IMG/VR virus record: IMGVR_UViG_3300048104_000775
Location: 1-21,326 of that record
DNA: 21,326 nt
From: a virus
Strand: one strand, 5' to 3'
The stretch's first letter is position 1; each line of letters opens with the position of its first letter. Made by a program: the position numbers and the translations under genes. Shown in pieces: positions 1,447-19,820 of this stretch. The notes under the pieces were generated by a model. The model was not told the DNA's origin. It saw nothing but the letters and a program-made list of their open reading frames with translations, and made no database searches.

Positions 1447-4400
1447 ATGTCTATAAATTTAAATGTAAACGGTAATACGGCCCCGCTGGAGGCAGCTGTT
1501 CAGGCGGCTGTAAACAGAATTCGCAAGACTCCAATCAAGGTAACTGTTGACGATAAGGGTGCTACTCAGCCCTTGGGCAATATGAAGCGGGGCGCTGATG
1601 AGTTTAGCAAATCGATGGAAGCTGCGAACGCTCGTATTATAGCTTTTGGAGCAAGTATGGCGATTATAAATGGAATTTCTGACGCATTCAAAGCTATGGT
1701 CACCAATGTCGTTCAGGTAGAAAAAGCTTTGGCAGATATTAATGTTGTGATGGGTTTAAGTTTGGCTAACTTGGATAAGTTTTCAGACTCTTTATTTAAG
1801 GTAGCAAAGGAAACTGCTGCAAGTTTTGATGTAGCCGCTGCTGCAGCCACGGAATATGCACGTCAGGGTTTAGCTGTCGAGGAAACTTTAAAAAGAACCA
1901 AGGACGCTTTAATCTTGACTCGATTAACAGGCATGGACTCTGCAAATGCAGTTAAAGCTTTAACTGCTGCGATGAATACATACGGAGATGAAATAAAAGA
2001 TACTACTCAATTGGTTAGTAAGTTTGCCGCAGTAGACGTTAAGTTTGCGGTTAGCGCAGAAGACTTTGCTGATGCAATATCTCGTACTGGTCAGGCTGCA
2101 AAAAGCGCTGGAGTGGATATTGATGAATTGGTTGGTTTGATTACTGCCGCTCAGCAGAAAACTGCGCGAGGAGGTAAGGTGATTGGAAACTCGTTTAAAA
2201 CAATTTTCACGAGAATAGGAAGAACTGATACATTAAATCAATTAGAAAACTTGGGCATTGCTGTTCGAGATGTCGAAGGAAATACAATGGGCGCAAAAAG
2301 AATTTTGACTGATCTTGCAAATACGTTTGACTCTTTGACCGAGTCGCAAAAAGCTCAAATTGCACAAACAGTTGGTGGAGTTTTTCAAATCAATGTTCTT
2401 AAGGCTGTATTAAGTGATGCCGCGAAACAAAACGGAATTCTTGCGAACGCAACACAAATTTCTGCAGGAGCTACGGATGAAGCTATACAAAAGAATGAAC
2501 AATTAAGAAGCACGATGTCTGCAATGGCTAGCGAAACAGGTCTCGCGCTTAAAGAAGTTTCTGCCAAAATAGGGGAGCTCGCGATAGCTCCTGGAATGGA
2601 AAAGATTTTAAATATCGTTAAAGGTTTTGCGGAGGGAGCTTCTGATATGCTTGGAGATGGAGAGTCTTCTGGAAATAAATTTGCTACAGGTTTTTTAAAA
2701 GGACTCGGTAATATTATTACTGGTCCGGGATTGGTTGTTATCGTTGCCGTGTTTGGCAAACTATTTTTGAAAGCGGCTCAGTATGCTCGAGAAAGTTTGA
2801 GCTCGTTGATTGGTGTTACGAGTGAAGCTCAAAAACAAAAAGCTATACAAACTTCTTTGGTCACTTTATTTGGTCAGAACGCAGCTCTTAGCAAGGAGAT
2901 GTTGCGCACCGATATCTCTCGAACAGAAAAAGAAAGAATAATTCTTGGATTGCTTAAAGCTCAGGTAGTGGAAGCTAATGCTTTAAACACTATCGCGAGA
3001 AGTTCTGCAGCTAATTTGTATCAAAAAGGTTACGGATCTAATCTTGCTCCCAGAGGAAAACCTCGCCGTACAAGCGCGCAAGGTTATATACCTAATTATG
3101 TAGACGCTGAGCGCCAGCAGGCCGCACAAGGTGGGTATGCTGCTGGAAGTATTCGCAGTATGAACATGCCTGGCGAAGGCTCGGTAATATATAATAGCGC
3201 AGAAAAGGTAAAGAATTTTAAAGGCATGAGTCAGCCCGCGATTATGCCTCCAAAGTCAAGTAAAGCTGGAGAAAATTATCAACAAGCATTTGATAGTATA
3301 CATGGATTCGATCCATATGCCGCAGGAGGATATATACCGAATTTTGCGAAAAAAACCGCATCTAAAACTTCTGATATTCCACGAAATCTTAATTCTAAAA
3401 AACTGGGAGATCTGAATAAAGATTCTTCTTTAATTTTATTAACCGCTGACTCTTCTGCTGATAGCGAGTCGAGGTTCTTTGTAGGAAAAGACCCTAAGGG
3501 TGGGACAAAAATTTTAAACACTGCAGATCTAGCTTCAAAGAGGACTACGGGTTATTACCAAGTAGATGTTCCGTATTATTCTCTAGATAAAAACGACAAA
3601 AGTAGGAAAAGCAAAATAGACTTACCCTCGATACAAAAGGCAATTACTGCTGCAGCATCAGGCAAAGCTCTTGATATAGCCAAGCAAATTGTCGGGGGAG
3701 AGAAGAATTTAAAACCTTTTAATAGAGAACAAATTAAAGAAACATTTAATAAAGGCGCTTTTAAGGGCGCCGCTGGTAGCGCATTCGAGAGTGCAATAGC
3801 TGCAGCCCTTGACTCTTATTTGTTTCAAGATTATAAAGCAAGAACTGATACATCTGCGATAGATTTACCTTATGACCCTAAGGTGTTTCAGTATTTTGGA
3901 GCTCCTCCTGGCGCTGGGAAAATGGGGGCAGAGGTAAAAGCTGATCTAGCTAACAATTTGCAACAAGGTGCCGCCAATAAGTTTTATCAGGTTTTAGCGG
4001 GGGGTCGTGCGGCATGGCAATATAAGGATAAAAATTTTAAGGACCAAATGAGGGGGTCGGCTGAAGATGCAGGTTTGGAAAGAAGGGGGGGCGCTTATTT
4101 TAAGAAAGGTAGGGCTTACGGTCATATTCCAAACTTCGCCGCAGCGCGACTAGCTCTCACGGGTGGATTGGTTGGAAAAAACAAATTTGGCAATATAGAT
4201 CGCAGGCAGATGACAAGACTAGTAAGATCTAATCCTTACTTCAACGGCTTGATGAATGAACATCTTACATGGGACAGTTTTCCGAAAAAAGATAAGCGTA
4301 AATTAAGCAGGTGGCTACTCAAACAAGGGGTGTCTAACCGAGCCTTACAAGCGTATGGTCTTGCAAGCATGCATTCAAAATCGATCGGAGAGGGAATCTC

Positions 4401-7400
4401 AAGCTTAGCTATGGCGAAAGGCTATATTCCTAACTTTGCTGACCCATTATCTGATGCGATAGGTAGGGAAAAAGAGGCTGGAGTTCCTGTTTCTAAAATA
4501 CGAATTGGCTCCCATCCTGCACTCATGGGTAAAAGCAATCCTGTAGGACTCGGCGTGACCAATACTGACGATGAACCAAATGGACTGCGCGATGTATTTG
4601 GTGCCGCTAATGGATATGTGCCAAATTATGCACCGACTCCATTAACATACTCTGATATAGGTTCCGGCAGAAGCGGAGGCTCTTCAGCTGCGCAGGCACA
4701 AATGGAAAAAAGCGCCAAGCAGTACAATAAAAGTCTGCAAAGATTAATAAAACTTTTTGAGCGAAAAAAACTGAGTCACGAGCAATTAATAAAAGGTTCA
4801 AATAATTTAAATCAAAAATACAGAGTAAATGCAAGTGCATCTTCAAAAGTGTCTAAAGAACTTAATTCTATGCAAGGCTCTATTGGTAAAGCTAAAGCGG
4901 GTCTAGAAAGAGCTTCATTATCTTATCAAAGAAGTTCGGTTGGTAGACTCTCAGCTGGCGCGGGAAGAATGTTCAGTGGTAACGCCGGAATGATGATGAT
5001 GATGGGTGCGCCGATGGCCGCAGGGTTCTTGCAGAGTGATGGGCCAGGGCAGGCGGGAATGGGCGGGGCTGCGTATAGCGCCGGAGGAGCATTAACTGGA
5101 GCAGCTTCCGGAGCTATGATGGCAAGTATGGTCGCCCCAATGTTTGGTCCCGCAGCTCCATTGGTGATTGCCATGGGAGGTTTAGTTGGGGGGTTTAAAG
5201 GTTTTATCAGTGCTCAAGAAGAAAACACAAAAGCTTTAGAGAAAAATAGACAAGAGCTCGTTCAAAAACAAACACAAACGGCCTCTCAATCTTTATCAAA
5301 AGTTGTACAAGCTTCTGAGTTGAGAACTTCACTTAAGCAAGCCAGTTTAGTAGGCGAGGGAGATAAGCTTGGTCTAGGCCAAGACGATTCCGTCATAAAT
5401 CTCATTCGGGAGGTCGGTAAAAAATCTAAAGGCTTTAATTTTGATGAAAAAGGGCAAGGGAAAGGAAATCTTCAGGGCATTAATAAAGGTGATTTTGAAA
5501 GGTTTTCAAGTTTAATGAACTGGAATGCCAAAACCGGAGATATAGAGTCCAAATCCAAGTTTGAGGATGGAGACGCCGAGACGATGGAGAAATGGTATAA
5601 TAAACAAACGAGAGAGTATACCCAAAGAGAAAGCGAAGATTTTAAGGTCTATAAAAAAGTCTCTAAAAAAATAATGGACCTACCGGATAATCAGGAAGCT
5701 CCGATGCCTCAAGATCTGCGAAGTTTTCTAAAAAGCAGAGATGGAGATGCTGAAGCCGGAATGAATGCGTCAATAGATTATATTTTAAAAAACGAAGCGG
5801 GTAACGAATTTGAGTTCGGCGATCAAAAGTTCGATAGAGAAAATTACCGAAAGCTTATGAGGGGCGAGCGGTCGGTGAATAGCAAAGGCAATAATGTAGA
5901 TGCGCTGGACCTAGAAACAAGAGGTAATGCTTTAACCGGTCAAGCTGAAGGCATATTAGATAAAGAAAATAAAGCGAACGGCGAAAAATTAAAAGGGATT
6001 ATTGTTCAGATTGATAACCAAAGAATGCAAATAACTGCTCAACGAGCTATAGCGATGAAGCAGTTAGAGATTAAAGACCACTACTCAGAAATTTCTGAAG
6101 ATTTAAAATTTGAAGTTATGTTAATGGGAAGTTTGATGACAGATAAGCAAAAAGCTGAAAACAAATACCTTCAAGCAATAAACAAATCCGCAGAAGCTTA
6201 TGAAAAATCCGCAGCTTCTGCAGATGGTCAATTAAGGACAGGGTTACTAAATCAAATAAAAGGTAGTGCCGACGTTCAAGGTTTACTTAAAGAATCATTG
6301 GGCCTTGAAAAAGGCGCTCAGTTTCAAGATATTAGTGACAAGGTTGGAAGTTTAACTGGAGGCCAGATGGTCGAAAAACTAAAGGAAATAGCGGCTGACT
6401 CAGACACAGAAGACACCATGCGTAAGGCTATAAATGATTTACTTACTGTAGAGATAGACAAAAGACAAAATATTTTAGATATCGCAGAAAAAACTAAAAC
6501 GAACTCCACAGATCAAGCAACTAGAGAGCAAAAGATTAATAATATACTCGCAGGTCGATCTCAAATTATAAAAGATTTAGAAAGGGGAAATCGCATGTCT
6601 TCAGAAGATCTTCGATCTTCCCAGAAAATCCGAGGGTTTACCGAACAAGTTGCCGCAGCAAAAAGGTTAAATGCTGTAGGCCCAGGATACCAAACCAAAA
6701 GAGAAAGAGAAAATTTTACAATGTCCGAGAAAAGATTTGGATTAGAATCTAAAATCACAACTCTCGAAGAAAATAAGGCAAAATCTATAGGAGAGCTAAA
6801 TATAGAAAAAGAAAAAACTAATCAAGTGATTGACCAAGACAAACTCAAAAATTTAAGACAAAACAAAAAAGATGCAGAAGATTATAGTGAGCCTTTGTTA
6901 ATTTCTGACCAAGACCTAGAAACACTGAATAAGTTGGAGGAACTTGAGGTCGAAAGAATTAAAAAACTAGAAGAAATCGAACAAAAAATAAAAAACATAA
7001 ACTCCGAAACGGACAGCGAAATAGACAAAGCAAAAATACTTTTAGAAAAAGAAAAAGAAAGATTAGAGATAAAAAGAAAACACGAAACTGGACCTGGAGC
7101 ATTTGGTAGGGGGTTGGCGGGCGGCATGAAAAGCATGGCTGAACAAGTTGAAACGATGGACTACGAGCTTGGAACAAGGCTTCCTCAAACATTTGCTAAT
7201 GGTTTGTCTGGAGCGTTCATTGAGGCGATCAATGGAGCCAAGGACTTGGACGACGCGCTCAGAGAAGCTGGCTTGAATTTCTTGAAGATGATTCAAGAAG
7301 CCATGATGCAAAAAATGGTCATGCAAATGATGGGAGGCTTGGGATTTTCGCAAGGAGGTAATGTCCGCAATTACTCGAAAGGCGGAAATGTTCCCGCAAG

Positions 7401-8496
7401 AGTTTCGAATGGAGAATATTTAATGAGTCGAGAGGCTGTAAATAAATACGGCGGATCATTTATGCATGGATTGAACGCCCGAGGAAAAGCTCCTGGATTT
7501 TCTTCTGGAGGAAGAACTATTCAGCCAGGATCTCAACTCTCCGTTAATCCGGGATCCTTTGATTCAGGCAGAAAATACCAAAGACGACAAATGTCGGGAT
7601 TCTTTTACAGTGGCCAAGGAAATACCATGGGAATGAGAGAGGATCAAGAAACTGTTCGTGGAATAATCGCAGAGAGAGAGGCGAAGAGAAGAGAAGAGGA
7701 AGCTAAGGCTCGAGCAAAAAAACAAGAAAAGAGAGCTATGTGGGGAATGTTAGCTTCGACTGTAGCTATGGGCGCTATAAGCCACATGATGAGTGGAGGG
7801 ATTGATACGCGGACTGCAGGCGCAAAGGCTGATGGTTATACTGCAGACACTCCTTCTGGGGTTAGGTCTGCTACAAAAGATGGTTACCAATACAGTCTTC
7901 TGCCTGGTGCTAGTTCTGAAGGATTTGATAATGTTTCTAAAACCAGAAGCTGGAACCCTTTTAGCTGGGGAGGTTCTGGGGCTAGCATGAACGAAAGGCA
8001 ATTTCAATTTAATGATTTTCAGACTTCTCCGAATTATGGCGTTCCCCTCGACCCGTTCGGGTATAATGATCCTAGGCTTGCGTATTTTGGCGGAAAGATA
8101 AGCAACTACGCAAATGGCGGACCTATTTCTGGAAAGCCTGGAATCGATCAAATTCCAGCGATGCTTAGCGAGGGCGAGTATGTCGTTAAGGCTAGTAGTG
8201 CGAGACAGATTGGTAAGCCAATGCTTGACCGAATAAATGCTGGAAAATTTTATAATGGAGGAGCTGTTTCCGAAATGGAGGAAGCTTCTGATTCTGGCAT
8301 TTCTGGTGGAAAAACTAATAATATTAATATATCCGTAAACATAGAAAAGGGATCAGTTAAGTCTGAAAACAGCGAATCCAAGGGCGATGACGAAAAGGAA
8401 AAATCTGAAGGTTCATCTCTAGCCGAAAAAATAAAAGAGCAGATTTTATCTGTTATTATTGAGGAACAGAGACCTGGCGGAGTTCTGGAGGATTAG
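1447..8496 (+). CDS. Tail tape measure protein with embedded repeat-flanked modules
   Basis: 2349 residues. It is expected to fill the tail tube lumen, set tail length and be ejected with the DNA. Residues about 85-330 match the TP901-type minor tail/tape measure core (PhageMin_Tail style), e.g. TEYARQGLAVEET, LTGMDSANAVKALTAAMN and a VGGVFQINVLKA end. A hydrophobic segment follows at about 426-443. Residues 546-1062 are a modular region punctuated by five GYIPNFA-type motifs and holding a nuclease-like domain. Residues about 1180-1255 are Gly/Ala/Met-rich and hydrophobic, with a five-Met run at 1182-1186, a likely membrane-interacting part. Residues about 1260-1880 are charged and helical, ending in a coiled coil (about 1825-1880). 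The end (about 1885-2349) resembles lambda-type tape measure C-termini (LDDALREAGLNFLKMI, then repeated Gly-Gly ... GEY[LV][MV] units). The assignment as tape measure is very secure from length, composition and place; the internal cargo interpretation is inference. It ends 2 bases before the next start. Confidence 0.95.
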   Translation: MSINLNVNGNTAPLEAAVQAAVNRIRKTPIKVTVDDKGATQPLGNMKRGADEFSKSMEAANARIIAFGASMAIINGISDAFKAMVTNVVQVEKALADINVVMGLSLANLDKFSDSLFKVAKETAASFDVAAAAATEYARQGLAVEETLKRTKDALILTRLTGMDSANAVKALTAAMNTYGDEIKDTTQLVSKFAAVDVKFAVSAEDFADAISRTGQAAKSAGVDIDELVGLITAAQQKTARGGKVIGNSFKTIFTRIGRTDTLNQLENLGIAVRDVEGNTMGAKRILTDLANTFDSLTESQKAQIAQTVGGVFQINVLKAVLSDAAKQNGILANATQISAGATDEAIQKNEQLRSTMSAMASETGLALKEVSAKIGELAIAPGMEKILNIVKGFAEGASDMLGDGESSGNKFATGFLKGLGNIITGPGLVVIVAVFGKLFLKAAQYARESLSSLIGVTSEAQKQKAIQTSLVTLFGQNAALSKEMLRTDISRTEKERIILGLLKAQVVEANALNTIARSSAANLYQKGYGSNLAPRGKPRRTSAQGYIPNYVDAERQQAAQGGYAAGSIRSMNMPGEGSVIYNSAEKVKNFKGMSQPAIMPPKSSKAGENYQQAFDSIHGFDPYAAGGYIPNFAKKTASKTSDIPRNLNSKKLGDLNKDSSLILLTADSSADSESRFFVGKDPKGGTKILNTADLASKRTTGYYQVDVPYYSLDKNDKSRKSKIDLPSIQKAITAAASGKALDIAKQIVGGEKNLKPFNREQIKETFNKGAFKGAAGSAFESAIAAALDSYLFQDYKARTDTSAIDLPYDPKVFQYFGAPPGAGKMGAEVKADLANNLQQGAANKFYQVLAGGRAAWQYKDKNFKDQMRGSAEDAGLERRGGAYFKKGRAYGHIPNFAAARLALTGGLVGKNKFGNIDRRQMTRLVRSNPYFNGLMNEHLTWDSFPKKDKRKLSRWLLKQGVSNRALQAYGLASMHSKSIGEGISSLAMAKGYIPNFADPLSDAIGREKEAGVPVSKIRIGSHPALMGKSNPVGLGVTNTDDEPNGLRDVFGAANGYVPNYAPTPLTYSDIGSGRSGGSSAAQAQMEKSAKQYNKSLQRLIKLFERKKLSHEQLIKGSNNLNQKYRVNASASSKVSKELNSMQGSIGKAKAGLERASLSYQRSSVGRLSAGAGRMFSGNAGMMMMMGAPMAAGFLQSDGPGQAGMGGAAYSAGGALTGAASGAMMASMVAPMFGPAAPLVIAMGGLVGGFKGFISAQEENTKALEKNRQELVQKQTQTASQSLSKVVQASELRTSLKQASLVGEGDKLGLGQDDSVINLIREVGKKSKGFNFDEKGQGKGNLQGINKGDFERFSSLMNWNAKTGDIESKSKFEDGDAETMEKWYNKQTREYTQRESEDFKVYKKVSKKIMDLPDNQEAPMPQDLRSFLKSRDGDAEAGMNASIDYILKNEAGNEFEFGDQKFDRENYRKLMRGERSVNSKGNNVDALDLETRGNALTGQAEGILDKENKANGEKLKGIIVQIDNQRMQITAQRAIAMKQLEIKDHYSEISEDLKFEVMLMGSLMTDKQKAENKYLQAINKSAEAYEKSAASADGQLRTGLLNQIKGSADVQGLLKESLGLEKGAQFQDISDKVGSLTGGQMVEKLKEIAADSDTEDTMRKAINDLLTVEIDKRQNILDIAEKTKTNSTDQATREQKINNILAGRSQIIKDLERGNRMSSEDLRSSQKIRGFTEQVAAAKRLNAVGPGYQTKRERENFTMSEKRFGLESKITTLEENKAKSIGELNIEKEKTNQVIDQDKLKNLRQNKKDAEDYSEPLLISDQDLETLNKLEELEVERIKKLEEIEQKIKNINSETDSEIDKAKILLEKEKERLEIKRKHETGPGAFGRGLAGGMKSMAEQVETMDYELGTRLPQTFANGLSGAFIEAINGAKDLDDALREAGLNFLKMIQEAMMQKMVMQMMGGLGFSQGGNVRNYSKGGNVPARVSNGEYLMSREAVNKYGGSFMHGLNARGKAPGFSSGGRTIQPGSQLSVNPGSFDSGRKYQRRQMSGFFYSGQGNTMGMREDQETVRGIIAEREAKRREEEAKARAKKQEKRAMWGMLASTVAMGAISHMMSGGIDTRTAGAKADGYTADTPSGVRSATKDGYQYSLLPGASSEGFDNVSKTRSWNPFSWGGSGASMNERQFQFNDFQTSPNYGVPLDPFGYNDPRLAYFGGKISNYANGGPISGKPGIDQIPAMLSEGEYVVKASSARQIGKPMLDRINAGKFYNGGAVSEMEEASDSGISGGKTNNINISVNIEKGSVKSENSESKGDDEKEKSEGSSLAEKIKEQILSVIIEEQRPGGVLED
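3082..4632 (+). repeat. Five dispersed GYIPNFA-type protein motifs inside the tape measure
   Basis: The motif G-[YH]-[IV]-P-N-[FY]-[AV] occurs at residues 546 (GYIPNYV, nt 3082-3102), 628 (GYIPNFA, 3328-3348), 892 (GHIPNFA, 4120-4140), 992 (GYIPNFA, 4420-4440) and 1056 (GYVPNYA, 4612-4632). Four are preceded by a small or polar stretch such as AQ, AG, AK or AN. The pieces between them are 75, 257, 93 and 57 residues long and unlike each other. Codons differ among copies (tat ata cct, tat ata ccg, cat att cca, tat att cct, tat gtg cca), so the protein motif is kept by selection or is old, not a recent DNA duplication. I remember similar motifs in metagenomic phage proteins, but know of no established function. 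Confidence 0.9.
3349..4119 (+). other. Candidate PD-(D/E)XK nuclease-like module within the tape measure (residues 635-891)
   Basis: This is the longest piece between two GYIPNFA-type motifs. It contains an order of residues typical of the PD-(D/E)XK fold: a helix with GSAFESAIAAAL (Glu781), then acidic residues in ARTDTSAIDLPYD (Asp801, Asp806), then a short hydrophobic strand with AEVKAD (Glu829-x-Lys831), followed by helix-like NNLQQGAANKFYQVLAGG. The first 120 residues of the module look like a separate strand-rich lead-in (SSLILLTADSS, ESRFFVGKD). The call is from motif spacing only; the fold is not proven, and the module could be a catalytically dead or unrelated domain. Confidence 0.5.
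4984..5211 (+). other. Hydrophobic Gly/Ala/Met-rich segment of the tape measure
   Basis: Residues 1180-1255 contain a five-Met run (1182-1186), a Gly/Ala/Ser-rich stretch (about 1205-1230) and a strongly hydrophobic run ending in LVIAMGGLVGGFKGF. Tape measure proteins often carry such segments, which are thought to enter the host inner membrane during DNA ejection. No other segment of the protein is as long and uncharged. Confidence 0.6.
7381..7512 (+). repeat. First copy of the tape measure C-terminal GEY unit
   Basis: Residues 1979-2022 read GGNVPARVSNGEYLMS, then AVNKYG, a Leu-Asn pair and a closing Gly-Gly. The second copy at 8116-8262 has the same order: Gly-Gly, Pro-Ala, S-x-GEY, a hydrophobic pair, Gly, I-N-A-G, Gly-Gly. 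This unit is common near the ends of tape measure proteins and supports that identification. Confidence 0.7.
8116..8262 (+). repeat. Second copy of the tape measure C-terminal GEY unit
   Basis: Residues 2224-2272: GGPISGKPGIDQIPAMLSEG, then EYVV, a helix and DRINAGKFYNGG. It is a diverged copy of the unit at 7381-7512. Between the two copies lie about 200 residues with an Arg/Glu/Lys-rich helix (about 2075-2100), a short hydrophobic stretch and Gly/Ser/aromatic sequence. Confidence 0.65.
8487..8492 (+). promoter_or_regulatory. Ribosome binding site deciding the GTG start at 8499
   Basis: GGAGGA inside the last codons of the tape measure gene, 6 bases before GTG 8499. This strong match at ideal spacing supports the GTG start and tight coupling to the upstream gene. 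Confidence 0.75.
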
Positions 8497-10166: not shown

Positions 10167-11077
10167 GCAAGCCCTTTTTAAGATTTGAGGATGGAAAGGT
10201 TACTATAGGTTCTAGAGACTTAATGGTTAAAAGTGCAAACCTATCTATCGCTCCTAAATTACAAACAGAAAGAGTTTATGGAGATTATGATCCGAGTATT
10301 GCGGGAGCTAGAACTGAATTTGTAAATTTTTTACCCATTGCTTCATTGGCTGGAAGTCTTGATATTGAATTTCTTATTAACGCCGAGACATTTTCTAGTG
10401 GTAATACGAATAGTATTTCAAGGTTGTTTGAAATAGCGGAGGGAATGAGTGAGGGCCCTATAAACGAAAACTTGGTCGGAAGGTACTCTTTTAATAATAT
10501 GTACTTGCGATCTTTTGGCTTTAATGTTTCTCCGTTTAATGTTGTCAGGGCAAAAGCTTCGTACGACATATACGGAAGTCTATCAAAGAGCATTCCTTTT
10601 AGGTCTTCTCAGACCAGTAAAAATTTTGCCCATGGGTTAAAATCGTTTGGAGAAATGAAAGCTAGCAATGTTCTATCTGAGTCTGCCGTGCAGGGTCAAT
10701 TTGAAATAACAAATTTAGATTATACTATATTGGTGGAGAGAAAAATTCATCATCATATAAGAGATAATGAGCATACCTCTATCAATACTAAAGCTGACGG
10801 AGCCTTACCGTTTAGAGTGTCTGTGGAGTCTATAGAATCCGAGATGTCAATAAGCTCTAATGAGATTATACCTTCGCTCAATAATCGGGGCGATTATCAA
10901 TCATCAAGTTCTCCTTACGGAATTGAAGATTCTTCTATAAGTGCTTATTTGTATTCTATCGAGGGCTCTCAAATCGCTAGATTTTCTTGCAAAGGGAAAA
11001 TTCAATCTCAGTCCACCTCAATATCTGAAGGCTCCCTATCAAAAGGTAGTATAACCATAAGGGAGATAATAAAATAA
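10163..11077 (+). CDS. Tail tube-like protein, paralogue of the preceding gene
   Basis: 304 residues, ATG 10163 overlapping the previous stop by 4 bases. Residues 1-145 form a beta-rich domain with FGFNVSPFNVVRAKASYDIY at 118-137, which aligns with YSVSCSVGQVPEIRTDIRVF at 105-124 of the preceding protein (pattern V/P-x-x-x-R-x-x-x-x-[VI]-[FY]-G-x-L). Residues about 165-304 form a second domain whose QGQFEITNLDYTILVERKIH and SISEGSLSKGSITIRE segments align with the second domain of the neighbour. It lacks the aromatic insert. Lying between tape measure and M-like genes, it is probably a tail-terminal ring or distal tail component; a tube or minor structural role is also possible. The stop overlaps the next ATG by one base (TAATG). 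Confidence 0.6.
   Translation: MSKPFLRFEDGKVTIGSRDLMVKSANLSIAPKLQTERVYGDYDPSIAGARTEFVNFLPIASLAGSLDIEFLINAETFSSGNTNSISRLFEIAEGMSEGPINENLVGRYSFNNMYLRSFGFNVSPFNVVRAKASYDIYGSLSKSIPFRSSQTSKNFAHGLKSFGEMKASNVLSESAVQGQFEITNLDYTILVERKIHHHIRDNEHTSINTKADGALPFRVSVESIESEMSISSNEIIPSLNNRGDYQSSSSPYGIEDSSISAYLYSIEGSQIARFSCKGKIQSQSTSISEGSLSKGSITIREIIK
11059..11065 (+). promoter_or_regulatory. Ribosome binding site of the 2549-residue tip gene
   Basis: AAGGGAG, 11 bases before ATG 11077, within the end of the previous gene. With the TAATG overlap it suggests coupled translation plus independent initiation. Confidence 0.5.
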
Positions 11078-12276
11078 TGAGTTTTGTTGGTAAAATTGCA
11101 TGTGGAGTTGGGCATATTATTTGTTTGAAAACCAATGGATCTGTCTGGGGGGTTGGGTTTAATAAAAAAGGGGCTTTGGGGCTTCGACAAGTGCAAGGCT
11201 CTCAACCTGATGAGACAAGCTTCAAGAAGATGCTTGATGCTAACGGTTCAGCATTCGAGCTTTTACCTGGCGAAGATTGTCATCTATCTGCCAGCACAAA
11301 CAATTCGTTTTTTATAAAAAGCGATGGTTCTTCATGGGGAGTTGGCAGTCAATATAATGGCGTTTTATCTGATGGAGTAGTAAGCTTGGAAACTAGCGCA
11401 TCGTTTCCGGTTAAGGGACTTGGGCTTGAAAATATAATTCATGTTTCTTCTTCGGGTTCTCACGTCGCTTACTTAAAAAGCGATGGAACTGTATTGACTA
11501 TTGGTGGCAACTCTCAAGGTCAACTTGGAAACGGCTCGGTTGAGAATCAAAGCTTGCCTGTTCAGGTTATGGCCAACGCTTCAACCGTTTTTGATAACGT
11601 TAGTAAGGTTGAGTGTTCTGCTGGGTCCATTGTTTTTTTACGGAGCGACGGGTCTGTTTGGGCTGTTGGAGATAATTATAACGGAACTCTTGGCGATAAT
11701 AGCGGTCAAGATCGGTTGTTTCCTGTGCAAGTTGTTGATCAACAGGGCGACGCCTTATTGGACATAATTGATATTGCGTGTGGATATGATCATGTTTTGT
11801 TTCTAAAAAGTAATGGTACTGTTTTCGGAGCTGGACTTAATCGGTTTGGTCAACTAGCTCAAGGTTCGGGGGGTGGGTATAAATACTCCAGCGCTGTGCA
11901 ATTAAAGTCTGATTACGCTGCTCAAGACGTGCTTGAAGATATAATTTCTATTGATGCGGGTTATTATCATTCTGTTTTCTTGCGCCAAGATGGAAGCGTG
12001 CTTTCTGTGGGGATCAATGAACACGGAGAGTTGGGCGATGGTTCACAATCCGACAAAAAGGCGCCAGTGCTTTTAAAAAAACACGATCTTGGTACTTTAT
12101 ATGGAGTAAATTATATTCGTTGCGGAGCGTTCTTTACTAGTTGTTTATGCGACGATGGTTCTTTATGGGGGGTGGGTCAAAATAATTTTGGGCAACTCAG
12201 TGATGGAACCAAAGAAAATAAAAGTCTCGCGATTCAGGCAGCTCACGAAGACGGTACTTTTTTCAATTCTGTAAGT
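11077..12276 (+). other. Seven RCC1-type repeats (predicted beta-propeller)
   Basis: Residues 1-400 hold seven units of the form [FYC]-L-[KR]-x-[DN]-G-[ST]-x-x-x-x-G-x-N-x-x-G-x-L, at about 16, 79, 132, 187, 242, 301 and 356 (e.g. FLRSDGSVWAVGDNYNGTLG). Spacing is 53-63 residues. Seven repeats are the number that closes an RCC1 propeller. It sits at the very N-terminus, before a flexible linker. Confidence 0.88.
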
Positions 12277-15200
12277 ACTTATGCTCCTGGTCAATCTAGC
12301 CCAGATCCCACTCCAGATCCAGATCCCACTCCAGATCCAGATCCCACTCCAGATCCAGATCCCACTCCAGATCCAGATCCCACTCCAGATCCAGATCCCT
12401 ATTCTCCTCCTTCGTCTGTCGACCCTGAAAACCCAGAAGATTTAATTTTTGACGGAGATACCTTAGGTGGAGATAGTGCTTTCTTTCATCAGCTTGATAC
12501 AAATATTTCTAATTATAGTGGTTTTTTTGAAACAGGAAAAAACTATAAAAAGTTTGATTTTGTATTTGATTCTGGGGATGGTAAATTTTATTACGCAAAA
12601 GAAGACTTGACTTACGGTAGCGATATAACCCTAGAGGGTTCTGATCGATTTTTTCTTGAACCAAATGGGCCAACTTCGCTTGACGGAAATCCCTCTCATT
12701 ATATATACGATGAAAGAAATGAGTTAACCACCTTGAATAACGAATTGCAAGTCGGTCAAACTATTCATATAACTGGATCTTTGTTTGGGTCGGATGGATT
12801 TTATAAGATCTTGGATTATGAAAAAGATTTATATCGACCGGGTTCATTGGACGGAACTATAGCTGGAGTTCTTGATGCAACTCCTGTTGAGGGAGTCAAT
12901 AACTGGTATGAATCTTCATGGCTTTTTGTTTGTAATGAAGGCACGAATGAGGAAATAAGTGAGCCTTTTTTCTCAATCGTTTCTAGTGATCGATGGATTT
13001 TTCATAACATGCTTGGGTGGTTATACATAGCTCCTCAAGGACAACTTCAGGATGGCGTGTGGATTTTTTTTCCTAGAGAAGGAGTTAAAAGTTCTGCAGC
13101 GGAAGATGTTGGATGTTGGGTTTGGGCATCCATAGAAACATTACGAGGTGCATCAAAAATGTATGTAAGCGAGTCCGATGGAAATCATTTCGGTCCTGCT
13201 GGCAGCTGGATTCACTGGCGAAAATCAGGATATCCTGAGTTTGCTGCTGTTTTTTATAACTATGAATCATCTAGGTGGTATGGATTTAAAAAACAAAATA
13301 AAGGTGTGCAAGAAATAGTAAATCGTGGACCTCTTCCGGATTTTCCCACTTTTAGTCCTGAGTCTAGGGTTGGAGCTGGTTTGTCTGCAAGAATCCATAT
13401 CCAAGGGGTAGATGCACAAACAAGCATCAGGCAAGTTGAGGAGGTTTCTGACAATTTTATATCTATTAAAGCTATTGCTGAAAATTTATCTTCCGATAGA
13501 GACTCTTGGTCTAGCGATTTATTTTTCTTTGACGCTGATTACGGATCAAGCGTAGACTTTAAAGCTGATAATGTTATAAATAAATTCGGAGATGGGTATT
13601 ACGCTGTATCTCCAAAAGGCGTGAACTCCTTGAAGGCAGAAATTAATTTGCAGTTTAAAAATAGAAGTAATCGCGAAGCGAATGCTATAGTTCATTTTTT
13701 AGAAAGCCATCAAGGGCAATTGGATCAAGATGTTGAATCTGAAACTCTAAATTATTCTCAGGGGATATCTGGTTTTAGGTGGGATGGAAATTCTACATTT
13801 CACCCATACGATTCTACGGAGACGCAATCTAAAACTTTTTATTGTTCTGAATTTTCTCATAATTTAAATTTTGAAAATAATAATGATTTAAATGTTAAGC
13901 TTGTTAATTACAATACATCTTTGCTTAGAAAGTCTGAAGAGCTGTTTATTAAAAGGCCTGATGATTATAATGATCAGGATTATTATTCTTTAAATGATGT
14001 TGTTTTTGATACTGGTAATCATCAATACTATTATTGTCATAGCGGGGACGGATCTCAGTCAAGGCAGGGGCTTGAGCCTGTACAAAATAATACCGAATGG
14101 AATAGAGACTCTAGAGATTTTCAGAATGTTAATAAAAATTTTTGGACTCGCAGTTTTTTCTGGAAGCCTTCTCTTGGACTCAATGTCGCTCAAGACGTTG
14201 AGCTTAGCGAGGTGGATCTAGGGTTGCCGTATAAGCAGGTTTATAAAAATGGAATCAATCAAAACTTATTAAAGTTAGATCTAAATTTTAATAATAGATC
14301 TGATTTGGAAGCTTACGCTATTCTTCATTTCTTGGAGCAGCATTATGGCTCTGTTCCGTTTGTTTTTTCTCCTCCCGCTCCGTACGAAAGAAAGAAAAAT
14401 TTTATTTGTCAACAGTGGAGGCATACGTATAACTTTAAAGATAATCATAGTATATCTGCGACTTTTGAAGAGTTCCCAATTAATTTAACTAGTGAAAAGT
14501 TACTTAATAATATCGGGCCTTCTCCAAAAACTCCTGCAGAAATATTAATGCCTCAGGAGATTAGTGTTCGAGAGCAAAAAGATCAATCTCTGTGGAGTCA
14601 GGTTCAATTGAGAAAAATTAAATTACAAAATATAGGCGGGTACGATGCAGCTGTAGATTCTTTATTTTTTGATAGTGGAGAAGCTTTTTTTAGGCTTCTT
14701 GGAAAGCCTGAATTAGGCGATAATTATATTCCCGAAAATTTATCAAGCGAGGAGCCTTTAACTTCGGCTATTATATCTTCTGTATTCTTGGATATAGTTG
14801 GCGCATCTATCGGAGCAGATGATCTAAATCTTTACTCTCAGAAAAACCATTGGACAGTAGGTACTCTGTCTAGCGCTATACTTAATTCACAAAACTTTTT
14901 GGAGTTAGTTCCTGATGCCAGAAATATCAATATACTGTACATAGACTTACTGGGTAGGGCTGTTGAGGTTGGAGAAAATATTGACAATTTACTTGATTCG
15001 AATACTTTTCCTGATGCTCGAAGTATTGTGCAACAAATTAAGTTGCTAGAAGAATATAGAACTTTTCAAAAACAGTCGGTTAAAATCGTTCCGAGAAAAG
15101 TAAAGCAAAATCAAAAACAAATTACCATTCCGGACAATAAACTCAAGAATGTAGGCCTGAATGGTTCTACTGTTATGTTGACAACAGAAAGTGACGAAGT

Positions 15201-18200
15201 TTTAGAATTTATAGAAATTGACACGCAAGTTAAATTTCGTCAATACCTGGACGGCAAAATAGGCAAGGAGGGAGAGAAGTTGGTTGATTCTGATTACTTT
15301 GTAATCGAGGGGTTTGTTAAAAAATTTGGAACCAACATTTTGAATGATAACTCTGATGGTTATATTTTTGTAAAATATGATAATGATTCAAGAGGTTATT
15401 CTAGTAATTTTCTTATCGATTCCGATGGAGAGCTTGTGGATATTACTAATGCACAAGGTGATGCGATTGGTAATTTGGAGGTTGAGATAACAAACGGTTG
15501 GTTGTACGGAGATTTAAAATTAACATGGGATAGTAAAAGTATACAAAGTAAAATTCAGCACTGGATCGTAGCAGATTCTTCAGCAATTCGAGCTTTAAGG
15601 GTTCAGCCTTGGGCTCTATCTGCCAACGAGTCTTTTCAAGATTATCTCGACAAAAGTTTAGAGGTTATTCCTGCTCCTCGGATTAGCATGCCAACATTTG
15701 CCTCTGGATATACTGATGAAGACGAAAATTTTGTGCCTAAGGATAAGTGGAACTTTCACGCTCGGCATTTTTGTAAAACAGATGTTATTGTGAACTCTTC
15801 TATCTGGGGAACTCAGGATGTTCCAACTAAAAGCATCAAAGATTTAAGTAGTGATGCTTTAATTACATTCGCTAATACTGAAAATCTATCTGATTGGGCC
15901 AACGAATTAATTCCTCTTGGATTTTATTCCAGACAACAGATAGTTTCTGACGGAACAGGAGGTGATGAGGATGTCGGAAGTGTTAGCGCTATAACATCTG
16001 CTTTGCTTGGAAGGGTTGCCACAGAAGATGAAATCGAGGCATATGCCGGACAAACTGTTGAGGATGTTGTTAATGATTATTTAAGAAAAGAATTTGTCTT
16101 GAGTGGAAAATTTATTCAAAAAAATTATTTTGAAATAACCCTAGACTTTGTTCCGAGAAAAGCGGATCCTGTCTTATTCAAGGGGATGTGGGTTCCGTAT
16201 GAGTTAACTCTGCATTCAACCGGAGACGGAGGAATGCTTTTGCCTAGAGAACTTTCCCAAAACAATATTGGTGATGTAAATGGCTGGTCTCCTGGCCAAG
16301 ACTTTTTACTTTTTGGTACGAGTGTCGATGATGACGAGCACACTGTGCTTGATTATATATCAACTTCTGATAGTACGAAATTAAGAAATGGATACGCGTT
16401 TTCTTCTACGCAAAAAGGTATTTGTAAAATAAACCAGGAAATAAAAAATGATTCAGGTGAAACGGTGGCCATTCGGGCGAAAATTAAATTTAAACTGTTT
16501 GGAAGTTCTGTTTCTGCTGATATTAGCGATCCAAATAATCCTTCTGCTTTTTATGTTCCTGGTAGTTCTGGTAATTTAGAAGTGGTTGTGGGTGAATATG
16601 CTTCCAAGCATGGTATTGTTTATCGACAAAAAGAAACTTCTTTTGGAGATCAATTATCATTTGGACTTGTTGAGTTTAGTAATCAAGTTAGAGGTGGGGA
16701 TGGCTTTCAATATATTCGAAGAAGGCAAAGTTTGAATGAAGATTTTGGGCCCTGGGGGCATATAGAAGATGACAATTCGTTTAGGGCCTGGTGGGCCGCT
16801 CAACCCCATAAATTGTTAGATCTGGCAGATGCAGATGGTAATCCAAAAAAGAATGAATGGCCTTGGATTTATACAGACAAATATTGTACGATCGGAACCA
16901 ATAGCAACTGCTACAGTGCTCCGAGTATTGATGTAAATGGAAATGTTGAAGCAGTGAAATATGTTCGAAAATCTTGGATGCCTCTTTTAGCGAGTCTTTA
17001 TGCGCAGCACTTAGCGACTTCTGATGATTTAGAAATTATTCTTCAGGCAGAGTCTTCAGTTTTCGAATTTGATGATGATGCTGGAATGTGGAAACTAAAT
17101 GGAGATTACATTCCTGACTTGAATGGTTTTATTTCTTTTTTGGAGGTTAAATACCCTGACAATACGATAATTGTCGAAACCAGTGAAACTAATGAAGCTG
17201 GAGAGAGTGTTTCAGTATTTAAGTATATTTCTTTTAGCGAAATTAATAAATGGAGAGAGACTGATGAGCTTTATGTATTAATGAAAGAGTTTCTTGTTAG
17301 TGAAGCAGAAAATTATAAAATATATATCGAAAAAGCTGAATCTCAAGATTTTTCTTACTCTGTGGTTAATCAAGCTGGGGACGTGCATTTTTCTGGTTAC
17401 AATTCTATTCAGTCTGCTACTTTAGAGTGGGAAAGATTAAATAATAAATTTTTCTATAAAAATTTCGTATTCGAAGATGTTCATGGAGAGCTGAGAAAAT
17501 TTGCACACGTAGTAAATTGTGATCAATATTTTGCTAACCCCAATAACTCTTCTTCAAATCAAAGTTGGAGTTATACATATTTTGATAAAGCGTCCGAAGA
17601 TAAACTTAAAGCAATAAACTCAGCGTATCAAAATATACCTCACTCAACTGAGACTCACGATAATCAAAATTATGATATTATTAGATTTGGTATTGGTAGA
17701 AGTCCTTTGCCTGAGACTTCATCTAATGCAGGTTTGAAGATTAATGCTTACTATTATATGAGCTTAAACGAGGAGGTTAAGCGGGAAATCTCAATCGCAA
17801 TTGAAACTATCGAGTCAATAATTTCGACTCCAATGACTATAAATGTATTTTTCTCTGAGCAACCAAACGGTAGACTTGGCGAAGCCGCCGAGTCGTCTAC
17901 CAATGCTAACTGTTTCATTCATCCTAATTTAGATTATATAGTTGGCGGAATGGGTTCTAGCGATTTCTCTAGGCCTGTGTCTTCTTCTATAACAATTAAT
18001 CCTGATGGGTTGTATAAGAGTATTGAATGGCATAGAGACATAAATCCCGATTACGAGTCAAGACTTTTATCTCCTGTTTACTACCTCATGTTACACGAAA
18101 TACTTCATTCTTTGGGCGTTGGATCCATGTGGTTTTTTGGAGGTTATTCGCACAATGGAGGTACAGCGTATCAATTGTTCGATCATCCGCGCAGAACAAG

Positions 18201-18726
18201 GCTTTTATCTGATAATATGCAGGAATCTCTTATTTGGGGGGGCACTATGAAGTCTTACGCAGAAAAATATTTATTGACCGAGGTGACTACATCTAATAAT
18301 ATTTATTATATAGGAGAACATGGCTCCGACAAATTTATAGATTTGTGCGCTTCCAGAAACGTAACGCATGGTGGTGCGGCTCCATATTTTCTGCGCGAAG
18401 GTGTAGCGGGGAACCCTTCTGCTATTCAATTTACGTACGACACAAAAATTGCATTATCTCCTCTAAGCAGGAGTATGGCAGCTGATCACGTTGCAGAGTT
18501 ACCGAGAATTAAGGAGATTTATTCCGGTGATGCGTTACAAGCAGTCCAATTATCTCCAGTATTTTCTGACGAAATTATGTCTATAGTTTACGACCCTGAG
18601 GACAACAAACCAATGGTAATATCAAGTATGACCATCGGCATGCTTCAAGATTTAGGTTTTTCTGTAGATTATTCTGTGGCAAATGATAGCGACCAACACT
18701 TGACATTAAACGATAAAATCTTATGA
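11077..18726 (+). CDS. Giant mosaic tail tip protein: RCC1 propeller, gpM-like domains, metalloprotease
   Basis: 2549 residues at the place of lambda M (gpM is about 110 residues). In order: RCC1-type repeats (1-400); Pro-Asp linker (409-441); a short Y-x-x-x-D-x-V ... YY segment like carbohydrate-binding family 5/12 (485-530); aromatic module (607-737); first gpM-like domain (817-945); a second Y-x-x-x-D-x-V segment (965-1025); second gpM-like domain (1027-1136); two DUF4214-like repeats (1228-1332); a long beta-rich part not recognised (1340-1635); a third DUF4214-like repeat (1637-1682); a part with paired Cys and Trp-rich sequence not recognised (1690-2170); and a leishmanolysin-like zinc protease (about 2175-2535, HEILHSLGVGS at 2340). 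There is no signal peptide, as expected for a virion protein. The gpM parts would anchor it to the tape measure/tip complex, while the propeller, aromatic and CBM-like parts likely bind host surface ligands and the protease trims surface protein. The functions of the added parts are inferred. It overlaps the L-like gene by 4 bases. Confidence 0.85.
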   Translation: MSFVGKIACGVGHIICLKTNGSVWGVGFNKKGALGLRQVQGSQPDETSFKKMLDANGSAFELLPGEDCHLSASTNNSFFIKSDGSSWGVGSQYNGVLSDGVVSLETSASFPVKGLGLENIIHVSSSGSHVAYLKSDGTVLTIGGNSQGQLGNGSVENQSLPVQVMANASTVFDNVSKVECSAGSIVFLRSDGSVWAVGDNYNGTLGDNSGQDRLFPVQVVDQQGDALLDIIDIACGYDHVLFLKSNGTVFGAGLNRFGQLAQGSGGGYKYSSAVQLKSDYAAQDVLEDIISIDAGYYHSVFLRQDGSVLSVGINEHGELGDGSQSDKKAPVLLKKHDLGTLYGVNYIRCGAFFTSCLCDDGSLWGVGQNNFGQLSDGTKENKSLAIQAAHEDGTFFNSVSTYAPGQSSPDPTPDPDPTPDPDPTPDPDPTPDPDPTPDPDPYSPPSSVDPENPEDLIFDGDTLGGDSAFFHQLDTNISNYSGFFETGKNYKKFDFVFDSGDGKFYYAKEDLTYGSDITLEGSDRFFLEPNGPTSLDGNPSHYIYDERNELTTLNNELQVGQTIHITGSLFGSDGFYKILDYEKDLYRPGSLDGTIAGVLDATPVEGVNNWYESSWLFVCNEGTNEEISEPFFSIVSSDRWIFHNMLGWLYIAPQGQLQDGVWIFFPREGVKSSAAEDVGCWVWASIETLRGASKMYVSESDGNHFGPAGSWIHWRKSGYPEFAAVFYNYESSRWYGFKKQNKGVQEIVNRGPLPDFPTFSPESRVGAGLSARIHIQGVDAQTSIRQVEEVSDNFISIKAIAENLSSDRDSWSSDLFFFDADYGSSVDFKADNVINKFGDGYYAVSPKGVNSLKAEINLQFKNRSNREANAIVHFLESHQGQLDQDVESETLNYSQGISGFRWDGNSTFHPYDSTETQSKTFYCSEFSHNLNFENNNDLNVKLVNYNTSLLRKSEELFIKRPDDYNDQDYYSLNDVVFDTGNHQYYYCHSGDGSQSRQGLEPVQNNTEWNRDSRDFQNVNKNFWTRSFFWKPSLGLNVAQDVELSEVDLGLPYKQVYKNGINQNLLKLDLNFNNRSDLEAYAILHFLEQHYGSVPFVFSPPAPYERKKNFICQQWRHTYNFKDNHSISATFEEFPINLTSEKLLNNIGPSPKTPAEILMPQEISVREQKDQSLWSQVQLRKIKLQNIGGYDAAVDSLFFDSGEAFFRLLGKPELGDNYIPENLSSEEPLTSAIISSVFLDIVGASIGADDLNLYSQKNHWTVGTLSSAILNSQNFLELVPDARNINILYIDLLGRAVEVGENIDNLLDSNTFPDARSIVQQIKLLEEYRTFQKQSVKIVPRKVKQNQKQITIPDNKLKNVGLNGSTVMLTTESDEVLEFIEIDTQVKFRQYLDGKIGKEGEKLVDSDYFVIEGFVKKFGTNILNDNSDGYIFVKYDNDSRGYSSNFLIDSDGELVDITNAQGDAIGNLEVEITNGWLYGDLKLTWDSKSIQSKIQHWIVADSSAIRALRVQPWALSANESFQDYLDKSLEVIPAPRISMPTFASGYTDEDENFVPKDKWNFHARHFCKTDVIVNSSIWGTQDVPTKSIKDLSSDALITFANTENLSDWANELIPLGFYSRQQIVSDGTGGDEDVGSVSAITSALLGRVATEDEIEAYAGQTVEDVVNDYLRKEFVLSGKFIQKNYFEITLDFVPRKADPVLFKGMWVPYELTLHSTGDGGMLLPRELSQNNIGDVNGWSPGQDFLLFGTSVDDDEHTVLDYISTSDSTKLRNGYAFSSTQKGICKINQEIKNDSGETVAIRAKIKFKLFGSSVSADISDPNNPSAFYVPGSSGNLEVVVGEYASKHGIVYRQKETSFGDQLSFGLVEFSNQVRGGDGFQYIRRRQSLNEDFGPWGHIEDDNSFRAWWAAQPHKLLDLADADGNPKKNEWPWIYTDKYCTIGTNSNCYSAPSIDVNGNVEAVKYVRKSWMPLLASLYAQHLATSDDLEIILQAESSVFEFDDDAGMWKLNGDYIPDLNGFISFLEVKYPDNTIIVETSETNEAGESVSVFKYISFSEINKWRETDELYVLMKEFLVSEAENYKIYIEKAESQDFSYSVVNQAGDVHFSGYNSIQSATLEWERLNNKFFYKNFVFEDVHGELRKFAHVVNCDQYFANPNNSSSNQSWSYTYFDKASEDKLKAINSAYQNIPHSTETHDNQNYDIIRFGIGRSPLPETSSNAGLKINAYYYMSLNEEVKREISIAIETIESIISTPMTINVFFSEQPNGRLGEAAESSTNANCFIHPNLDYIVGGMGSSDFSRPVSSSITINPDGLYKSIEWHRDINPDYESRLLSPVYYLMLHEILHSLGVGSMWFFGGYSHNGGTAYQLFDHPRRTRLLSDNMQESLIWGGTMKSYAEKYLLTEVTTSNNIYYIGEHGSDKFIDLCASRNVTHGGAAPYFLREGVAGNPSAIQFTYDTKIALSPLSRSMAADHVAELPRIKEIYSGDALQAVQLSPVFSDEIMSIVYDPEDNKPMVISSMTIGMLQDLGFSVDYSVANDSDQHLTLNDKIL
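12301..12399 (+). repeat. 18-base tandem repeat encoding a PDPTPD linker
   Basis: Five base-for-base identical copies of ccagatcccactccagat (12301-12390) plus half a copy (12391-12399), encoding (PDPTPD)5-PDP at residues 409-441. It is in frame, so copy-number change would alter linker length without breaking the gene. It separates the propeller from the rest of the protein. Confidence 0.95.
12889..13296 (+). other. Aromatic (W/Y/F-rich) module, copy in the giant tip protein
   Basis: Residues 605-740. Blocks NWYESSWLFVCNEGT, MLGWLYIAP, GCWVWAS, and AAVFYNYESSRWYGF line up in order with residues 210-343 of the protein encoded at 8499. It lies between the first CBM-like segment and the first gpM-like domain. 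Confidence 0.7.
13525..13911 (+). other. First lambda gpM-like domain
   Basis: Residues 817-945. FFFDADYGSSVDFKADNVIN, then FGDGYYAVSPKGVNSLKAEI, then a helix with EANAIVHFLESHQG, an FRW block and a Cys-containing strand (FYCSEFSHNLNF). This is the order of lambda minor tail protein M (FGDGY-x-x-x-x-x-x-G-x-N, helix with FLE-x-H-G, F-x-W, Cys strand). gpM acts in tail tip assembly. Confidence 0.75.
14155..14484 (+). other. Second lambda gpM-like domain
   Basis: Residues 1027-1136. LDLNFNNRSDLEAYAILHFL, EQHYG, PFVFSPPAPY, and FICQQWRHTYNF match the first copy closely (shared L/I-x-L-x-F-x-NRS-x-x-EA-x-AI-x-HFLE-x-H-x-G). The FGDGY turn is replaced by LGLPY, so this copy is more diverged at its start. 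Confidence 0.72.
14758..16122 (+). other. DUF4214-like helical repeats (three), split by a beta-rich part
   Basis: Helical units with the pattern h-x-x-h-h-G-R/A ... h-x-x-F: residues 1231-1276 (SSVFLDIVGASIGADDLNLY, then ILNSQNFLEL), 1284-1331 (INILYIDLLGRAVEVGENID, then QIKLLEEYRTF) and 1637-1682 (VSAITSALLGRVATEDEIEA, then YLRKEFVLSGKF). LGR followed by an acidic stretch and an S/E-E-F/Y end is typical of DUF4214, found in large extracellular bacterial proteins. The role here is unknown. Confidence 0.5.
17599..18681 (+). other. Leishmanolysin-like zinc metalloprotease domain
   Basis: Residues about 2175-2535. A helix plus strand (IAIETIESIISTPMTINVFF) leads to LGEA, then the zinc motif HEILHSLGVG at 2340-2349 (His2340, catalytic Glu2341, His2344). 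No His lies at the usual eleventh position, as in the M8 family, where an insertion separates the third ligand; His2471 (ADHVAEL) is my candidate. EIMS at 2499-2502 (Met2501) fits the Met-turn, and SSMTIGMLQDLGFSVDYS matches the closing helix typical of M8-like proteases. Confidence 0.8.
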
Positions 18727-19820
18727 GCGAATCTTCTTCAAATTTAAATAAACAATTAGTCTCTATGAATCCCGATTCAATAATAGAACTATTTGAGATT
18801 GATTTTAGCGATATAACTTTAGATTCTTCTGTATTTGGAGATGATATAGGTCCAGAGGCTGTATATAGATTTACCTCTATGATTAATGGATCAAACCCTA
18901 TAGTTTGGCAGGGGAAATCTTACCAACCTATGCCTATAAAGATGGAAGGATTTGAAAGTAGTGGGGCAGGAAAGTTGCCTAGACCCTCTCTATCTCTCGC
19001 TAATCCCGAAGGTATTTTTTCAAAAATAGTATACTCAAATCAAGATTTCTTAAATTGTAAGGTCACAAGAAAAAGAACGTTCTTGAGGTTTCTTGACGAG
19101 GAAAACTTTCAAAATAGGAATCTAAATGAAGACTTTAAAAATCCATTTGGGAGCTCAGATATGAAAGCTCAACTTCCTGATGATGTATATTTCATAAACA
19201 GAAAGACTCTTGAAGATAGAGAGCAAATTCGGTTCGAGCTCGCTTCTCCTTTAGAGCTAGAAAACGCTTGGGTTCCTGCTAGAAAAGTTATGTCTAATTA
19301 TTGTTCCTGGACTTATCGATGTGATATCGGTTGTGGTTACAAGGGATTACCTATAGAGACTATTGATGGAGCTAGCTTGACGAAAGGTTTTTCTGTGGAG
19401 GAGAAAAAGAAAAACGGGGAAATAGATACAGGAAGAGTTGATCCACAAAATTATACTGCTATGATGGCCGATGTTCCGCATTGGTCTAGTCGGGATGCGC
19501 AAGACCTGCCTTTGAGTTATCTTGTCGGAGATGTCGTACAAATTGTTCAAAAAAATACGCAAAACCCGTATTCTAGAACTCCTCAAGTATTTGTTTGCTG
19601 TCAAAATCATAATAATAAAGATCAGGTACGTCACCCTTTTTTGCATAAAGATTTTTGGTTAAAAGATGAATGCTCAAAAACCGCCAACTCTTGCAGAAAA
19701 AGATTCTCAGATGATTTTAGAAGTCTTAATGAATATAATACTATTCCTGGCACAGACTCAAACGATAGGGGTTTAAGATTCGGAGGTTTTCCTGGAACAG
19801 AGGATTATCCGATTGAGTAG
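18723..19820 (+). CDS. L: Lambda gpL-like minor tail protein (iron-sulfur tip protein)
   Basis: 365 residues, longer than lambda gpL (232). Residues 20-190 are the beta-rich N-terminal part (IIELFEIDFSD; VWQGKSYQPMPIKMEGFE; RPSLSLANPEGI; ELASPLELENAWVPARKV). Then come NYCSWTYRCDIGCGYKG (Cys194, 200, 204) and DECSKTANSCRKRF (Cys317, Cys324, spacing C-x6-C), ending in LRFGGFPG. These are the signature parts of gpL, whose C-terminal Cys residues hold an iron-sulfur cluster in lambda. Between the Cys pairs lies a roughly 110-residue insert with YLVGDVVQIV ... QVFVCCQNHNN ... FWLKDECSKT, similar to the CBM5/12-like segments of the upstream protein. It starts in an ATGA overlap and overlaps the K-like gene by 8 bases. 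Role: connects the distal tail ring to the tip. Confidence 0.9.
   Translation: MSESSSNLNKQLVSMNPDSIIELFEIDFSDITLDSSVFGDDIGPEAVYRFTSMINGSNPIVWQGKSYQPMPIKMEGFESSGAGKLPRPSLSLANPEGIFSKIVYSNQDFLNCKVTRKRTFLRFLDEENFQNRNLNEDFKNPFGSSDMKAQLPDDVYFINRKTLEDREQIRFELASPLELENAWVPARKVMSNYCSWTYRCDIGCGYKGLPIETIDGASLTKGFSVEEKKKNGEIDTGRVDPQNYTAMMADVPHWSSRDAQDLPLSYLVGDVVQIVQKNTQNPYSRTPQVFVCCQNHNNKDQVRHPFLHKDFWLKDECSKTANSCRKRFSDDFRSLNEYNTIPGTDSNDRGLRFGGFPGTEDYPIE

Follow-up and report, generated by a model that had tools for sequence, protein, structure and literature searches.

The tape measure protein of an uncultured tailed phage, probably marine, contains an internal cassette (residues 635-891; 3349-4119, +) that related phages exchange as a whole by recombination bounded by short GYIPNFA-type motifs. 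The cassette was delimited by homology and by its invariant, putatively catalytic residues. We lean towards reading it as a polymorphic nuclease effector of PD-(D/E)XK type that would be delivered with the virion and exchanged in-frame at these motifs. That the segment is an exchangeable cassette with the motifs as its borders, which is the most important feature, could not be seen by the initial annotation of this DNA, which was made from the single sequence.

A motif-bounded slot in the tape measure protein

The window, that is, the whole stretch of 21,326 nucleotides that was analysed, encodes the carrier of the cassette in an open reading frame at 1447-8496 (+). Its product is a 2349-aa tape measure protein (residue numbers used for the motifs are open reading frame positions minus 2). 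Its membership of the tape measure family is indicated by a PhageMin_Tail domain (Pfam PF10145, E 1.7e-28; residues 120-311, 1804-2379, +), by matches to PHROG tape-measure profiles with E-values down to 7.7e-49, by its length, and by its place in a tail gene cluster that runs on to lambda L/K-like minor tail genes (18723-20142, PHROG). The cassette is placed between two hydrophobic segments, one 5' of it (residues 423-441; 2713-2769, +; Kyte-Doolittle 2.19 over 19 residues) and one 3' of it (residues 1229-1247; 5131-5187, +; Kyte-Doolittle 1.71), which may have a membrane role. The window also encodes a 2549-aa protein (11077-18726, +) that begins with RCC1-like repeats and contains a tract of DPDPTP repeats and, near its end, an HExxH metallopeptidase-like motif (MLHEILHSLG).

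Five GYIPNFA-type motifs were detected in the tape measure by motif scan, at residues 546, 628, 892, 992 and 1056. Motif 2 (GYIPNFA, residues 628-634; 3328-3348, +; pattern match) forms the left border of the cassette and motif 3 (GHIPNFA, residues 892-898; 4120-4140, +) the right border, where DNA identity between related phages resumes. The cassette is flush with both, as the initial annotation had stated, since motif 2 ends at residue 634 and motif 3 starts at residue 892. The others are motif 1 (GYIPNYV, residues 546-552; 3082-3102, +; motif scan), motif 4 (GYIPNFA, residues 992-998; 4420-4440, +; pattern match) and motif 5 (GYVPNYA, residues 1056-1062; 4612-4632, +; motif scan). Two exact matches to the GYIPNFA DNA pattern lie in the window, with 0.00 expected. 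We did not find the string YIPNFA in any paper of the literature searched, the coverage of which was incomplete.

The slot between motifs 2 and 3 is filled by a segment of 235-308 aa in 56 of 60 tape measures (59 IMG/VR loci found with the tape-measure N-terminus, plus the window), and these 56 segments form one homology cluster. No empty slot was seen among the tape measures of the close group.

Conserved residues of the cassette

Among 44 distinct cassette segments, the median pairwise identity is 0.18, and G777, E781, D806, K831 and K845 are each present in 44/44, with E or D at residue 829. A motif-pattern scan that added 80 loci, together with a segment-profile search, enlarged the set to 86 distinct sequences spanning the core. 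In this set, the helix G777-S-A-F-E781 (3775-3789, +) has its glycine in 86/86 sequences and its acidic residue as Glu in 82 and Asp in 4. D806 (3862-3864, +) is present in 86/86, and the (D/E)XK motif E829-V-K831 (3931-3939, +) has E or D in 85/85 and K in 84/85. The residue at K845 (3979-3981, +), in the helix after the ExK strand, is K in 74 and Q in 10 of 85. The same succession of Glu (helix), Asp, (D/E)xK and K/Q (helix) characterises the PD-(D/E)XK superfamily, in which E/D swaps at sites like 781 and 829 and K/Q at sites like 845 are also seen. From the single sequence, E781, D801, D806, E829 and K831 had been read as following the order of such an active site. All five lie at the positions claimed, and E781, D806, E829 and K831 proved to be conserved, but D801 varies among homologues and was dropped as a catalytic residue, leaving D806 as the conserved Asp.

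Three downstream control stretches of the same proteins, two of which matched the cassette in identity level, have either no invariant columns or only invariant G, P or L; the stretches at a median identity of 0.19-0.21 have no invariant residue other than G or P, and none that is acidic or basic. Homologue alignment, first with 44 and then with 86 sequences and with these controls, thus showed that the E/D/ExK residues of the cassette do not vary freely. The cassette is under strong purifying selection, with dN/dS values of 0.05-0.36 within allotypes (21 pairs) and of 0.086 between the cassettes of the window and of L004. A nuclease-type cargo domain inside the tape measure is well supported by its sequence signature.

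Predicted fold and profile searches

AlphaFold2 models were obtained for the window segment with 46 sequences (pLDDT 78, pTM 0.75) and for a compact relative in L079 with 58 sequences (pLDDT 89, pTM 0.77). The two models share one topology, in which a three- to four-stranded N-terminal sheet is followed by helices. The C-terminal order in both is helix (Glu), short strand (Asp), helix, strand (ExK) and helix (K), so that the Glu, Asp, (D/E)xK order of the alignment recurs in the models, and the modelled elements appear to place the conserved residues where a PD-(D/E)XK site requires them. The core of that superfamily is alpha-beta-beta-beta-alpha-beta. Both models lack the strand usually found between the Glu helix and the Asp strand, and the topology is thus not the textbook one.

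Searches of the PDB with Foldseek and VIA-align gave no significant match for either model, and Foldseek against BFVD gave nothing significant. Cassette searches of Pfam, PHROG, NCBIfam and PDB sequences matched no nuclease family. Weak matches of the cassette to ryanodine receptor and lectin were rejected as chance similarity due to low complexity. Because no solved fold and no sequence profile matches the cassette, we call it PD-(D/E)XK-type by its signature. For the structural part of the initial annotation, the models give a confident alpha/beta domain in which the conserved residues sit on the elements where they are expected; a nuclease fold is suggested by the conserved signature, and the searches found neither a solved PD-(D/E)XK relative nor a profile match. 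In profile comparisons, the cassette aligned with an L061-type segment (probability 62, E 7.6e-5), and E, D and ExK fell in register, without significance, with those of a second nuclease-like type found in L062 and L068.

Exchange of cassettes between related phages

The identity of the N-terminal 530 residues is no predictor of cassette identity among 39 tape measures (Spearman 0.035, p 0.34). We compared 118 locus pairs with matching upstream DNA; the cassette is shared in 21 of them, and in the other 97 the match ends at motif 2. Relative to the end of this motif, the break lies between -22 and +4 nt (median -3), and in 84 of the 97 breaking pairs no more than 60 nt separate motif 3 from the point where the match resumes. 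In L031 and L049, 10.2 kb of DNA agree at 99.5% until the last bases that encode motif 2; cassettes of unrelated DNA follow, and from motif 3 the DNA identity is back at 95-98%. The pairs L032/L049, L044/L053, L034/L066 and L043/L044 likewise break at motif 2 and resume at motif 3. L015/L016 and L015/L018 also diverge at motif 2, but their match returns at the next motif instead, because L015 has an extra segment. The reciprocal case was also found: L047 and L060 have cassettes that are 92-97% identical (DNA) in backbones that are ~70% identical. Other parts of these tape measures are likewise diverged and partly mosaic, so that exchange by itself is no proof of an effector role.

A comparison over 45 kb was possible for the contigs behind L031 and L049; identity is 95-99.7% in most aligned blocks and 81-89% in a few. 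Three stretches of at least 150 bp cannot be aligned: the cassette (726 bp), 192 bp in the same tape measure and an island of ~970 bp, which takes in the end of a ~2780-aa protein as well as the beginning of the gene that follows. We read the ~2780-aa protein from its sequence as a tail-tip/fibre protein, and the gene after it appears to carry an endosialidase-type chaperone-like end. The cassette and the tail-tip/fibre end are the only two large islands that differ between these otherwise near-identical contigs, which puts the cassette in one class of variability with the receptor-binding tip. No co-exchanged neighbour gene was found beside the tape measure in L031 and L049, which argues against a linked immunity gene. 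The tail-tip island corresponds to L281:8865-9835 and L285:15506-16369 in these two otherwise near-identical phages.

Proposed function of the cassette

Exchange of the cassette with constant catalytic residues suggests that tails deliver interchangeable enzymes into infected cells. In other phages, tape measures are known to be ejected and to act at the inner membrane, and the lambda tape measure has been labelled beside inner-membrane entry proteins (PMC13190303). By this model, the tape measure would leave the tail as infection begins and bring the domain into the inner membrane or through it; the cassette would enter with it and refold in the cell. There, it might cut DNA other than that of the phage (the host chromosome, a plasmid, a resident prophage or satellite, or a rival phage) or disable a DNA-based defence. 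Its allelic diversity could be kept by host-to-host differences in targets or inhibitors, as for receptor-binding tips, and the GYIPNFA motifs may serve as short joints at which modules can be exchanged without disturbing the tape measure.

A nuclease could also act on the phage's own DNA, for instance by trimming or nicking its ends in ejection or packaging. The conserved catalytic residues would fit such a role, and the domain would be near the phage DNA both in the tail and at the site of entry. We consider it unlikely, since it predicts neither the 23 allotype clusters (50% identity) into which the 44 segments fall nor exchange between near-identical phages in step with the tail-tip end alone.

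A selfish, homing-type cassette, which would cut the tape-measure gene of a co-infecting phage lacking it and be copied in by recombination, would account for the sharp borders and for the spread between backbones, and homing endonucleases often invade tape-measure genes (PMC10448857). That the slot is occupied in all tape measures of the close group, with alleles that are replaced and not inserted, makes this origin rather improbable. The homing endonucleases known there are separate intron or intervening genes, whereas the cassette appears to be an in-frame domain free of an intein-like break.

As to the enzyme itself, the missing fold match and the unusual strand order would suit a metal-dependent hydrolase or binding domain of another fold, which has a similar E/D/ExK/K arrangement and does not cleave nucleic acid. 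The order of the residues, and the substitutions accepted at them, fit PD-(D/E)XK enzymes as generally known, and we give this alternative a similarly small chance. A purely structural insert, free to vary and without enzymatic role, is very improbable: tape-measure rods do vary widely and other segments are equally diverged, but invariant charged residues occur in the cassette and not in the control stretches, and selection on it is strongly purifying.

In many phages, no gene is longer than that of the tape measure, which is usually seen as a ruler with a cell-wall enzyme at most. If our preferred reading, the delivered nuclease effector, is correct, tails deliver enzymes that are active in the cell ahead of any phage gene expression, from a slot that is exchanged as often as the tail tip. 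It makes tail-borne early host takeover, action against plasmids or rivals, and counter-defence testable.

Comparison with known systems

The cassette would work most like Tme and the MuF polymorphic toxins. Tme, of the contractile injection system of Streptomyces davawensis, is a tape-measure-related protein of a tail-like particle that bears a nuclease domain, and its endonuclease activity has been measured (PMC11126660). The Tme nuclease is C-terminal, of EndA type (DRGH/H-N-N) and part of a bacterial system, whereas the domain described here is internal, PD-(D/E)XK-like and encoded by a phage; motif-bounded exchange is not described for Tme in the accessible part of that report (PMC11126660).

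MuF polymorphic toxins of temperate phages combine, in a virion-type protein, a conserved part with variable toxin domains that include nucleases (PMC5576092), and the tape measures likewise have a conserved carrier with an exchangeable, putatively enzymatic domain. MuF proteins are encoded beside the portal gene and have the toxin at the C-terminus, whereas the carrier here is a tape measure and the cassette is internal, at residues 635-891 of 2349. Most MuF toxin genes have a small candidate gene for immunity just behind them (PMC5576092), whereas none downstream of the cassette travels with it between L031 and L049. The polyvalent proteins of phages and conjugative elements are multidomain proteins predicted to be injected with DNA (PMC5512222), as proposed here for the carrier of the cassette, and their cargo includes DNase domains and acetyltransferases (PMC5512222, PMC7824862). 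Their survey does not mention tape measures, and the carrier, the GYIPNFA-type joints and the nuclease family differ here (PMC5512222).

An enzyme domain inside a tape measure is also known from muralytic domains, such as the lytic transglycosylases of enterococcal phages (PMC10194240); these target peptidoglycan at entry, whereas the cassette has the signature of a nucleic-acid enzyme. In phage ICP1, homing endonucleases tie a nuclease to the tape-measure gene and to genetic exchange (PMC10448857), but they are separate intron genes, whereas the cassette is a tape-measure domain in a slot that is always filled. In the close group, we found neither empty alleles nor splicing elements, the latter judged by sequence. 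In the literature searched, which was incompletely covered, we found no description of nuclease cassettes with motif borders in the tape measures of phages.

Distribution and other slot modules

As sole query, the window segment detected four close relatives in IMG/VR, near-identical or 83% identical; wider relatives were reached through the tape-measure N-terminus and the motif DNA pattern. Neither the segment nor any of three diverse relatives matched a record of a cultured phage. Relatives of the tape-measure N-terminus are encoded by at least 575 viral stretches. The few metagenome-assembled genomes with matches (Flavobacteriales, Neomarinimicrobiota, Halobacteriovorax and Verrucomicrobiales) may contain binned phage contigs; one of them, L194, carries the nuclease segment.

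One module is recognisable in the window tape measure, and in its relatives several segments are bounded by motifs. Those of other GYIPNFA-bearing tape measures hold other modules, for example a GNAT acetyltransferase in L119:2246-2653 (-) that scores above the Pfam cut-off (23.4 vs 20.7 bits), and GNAT-like segments in L114:262-696 (+) and L258:11228-11680 (+) that are near but below it. The order G..E, D, ExK was also found, outside the same alignment, in L062, L072, L087, L101, L121, L136 and L272. We tentatively propose, as a possibility that falls a little short of an even chance, that GYIPNFA-bearing tape measures are general modular cargo trains: one to ~10 motif-bounded slots would inject exchangeable effector enzymes at the first moment of infection, and slot content would evolve like the receptor-binding tip. 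In that case, the slots would hold several kinds of nuclease, acetyltransferase and, probably, kinase-, phosphatase- and ADP-ribosyltransferase-like domains. The GYIPNFA-type motif is a simple handle for finding such cargo in uncultured phages.

Six other motif-bounded segments, L272:12668-13561 (+), L118:2625-3200 (+), L260:9863-10756 (+), L099:6392-7444 (-), L103:2209-2718 (-) and L084:7900-8379 (-), resemble ADP-ribosyltransferase, kinase, HAD phosphatase and P-loop ATPase domains by eye; Pfam gave no support above its cut-offs for these resemblances. L258, L260, L262 and L272 have very long tape measures of at least ~2,250-2,830 aa (open at the sequence edge) with 8-11 GYIPNFA-type motifs, and L262:6179-6925 (+) matches DUF7178 (E 1e-12). 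The second nuclease-like module (GAIAEKEF...GIDF...LVEIKAR) occupies the slot after the first one in L062:12198-12809 (+) and L068:12617-13228 (+), and the L062 copy has a sub-threshold match to the restriction enzyme BsoBI (E 0.041).
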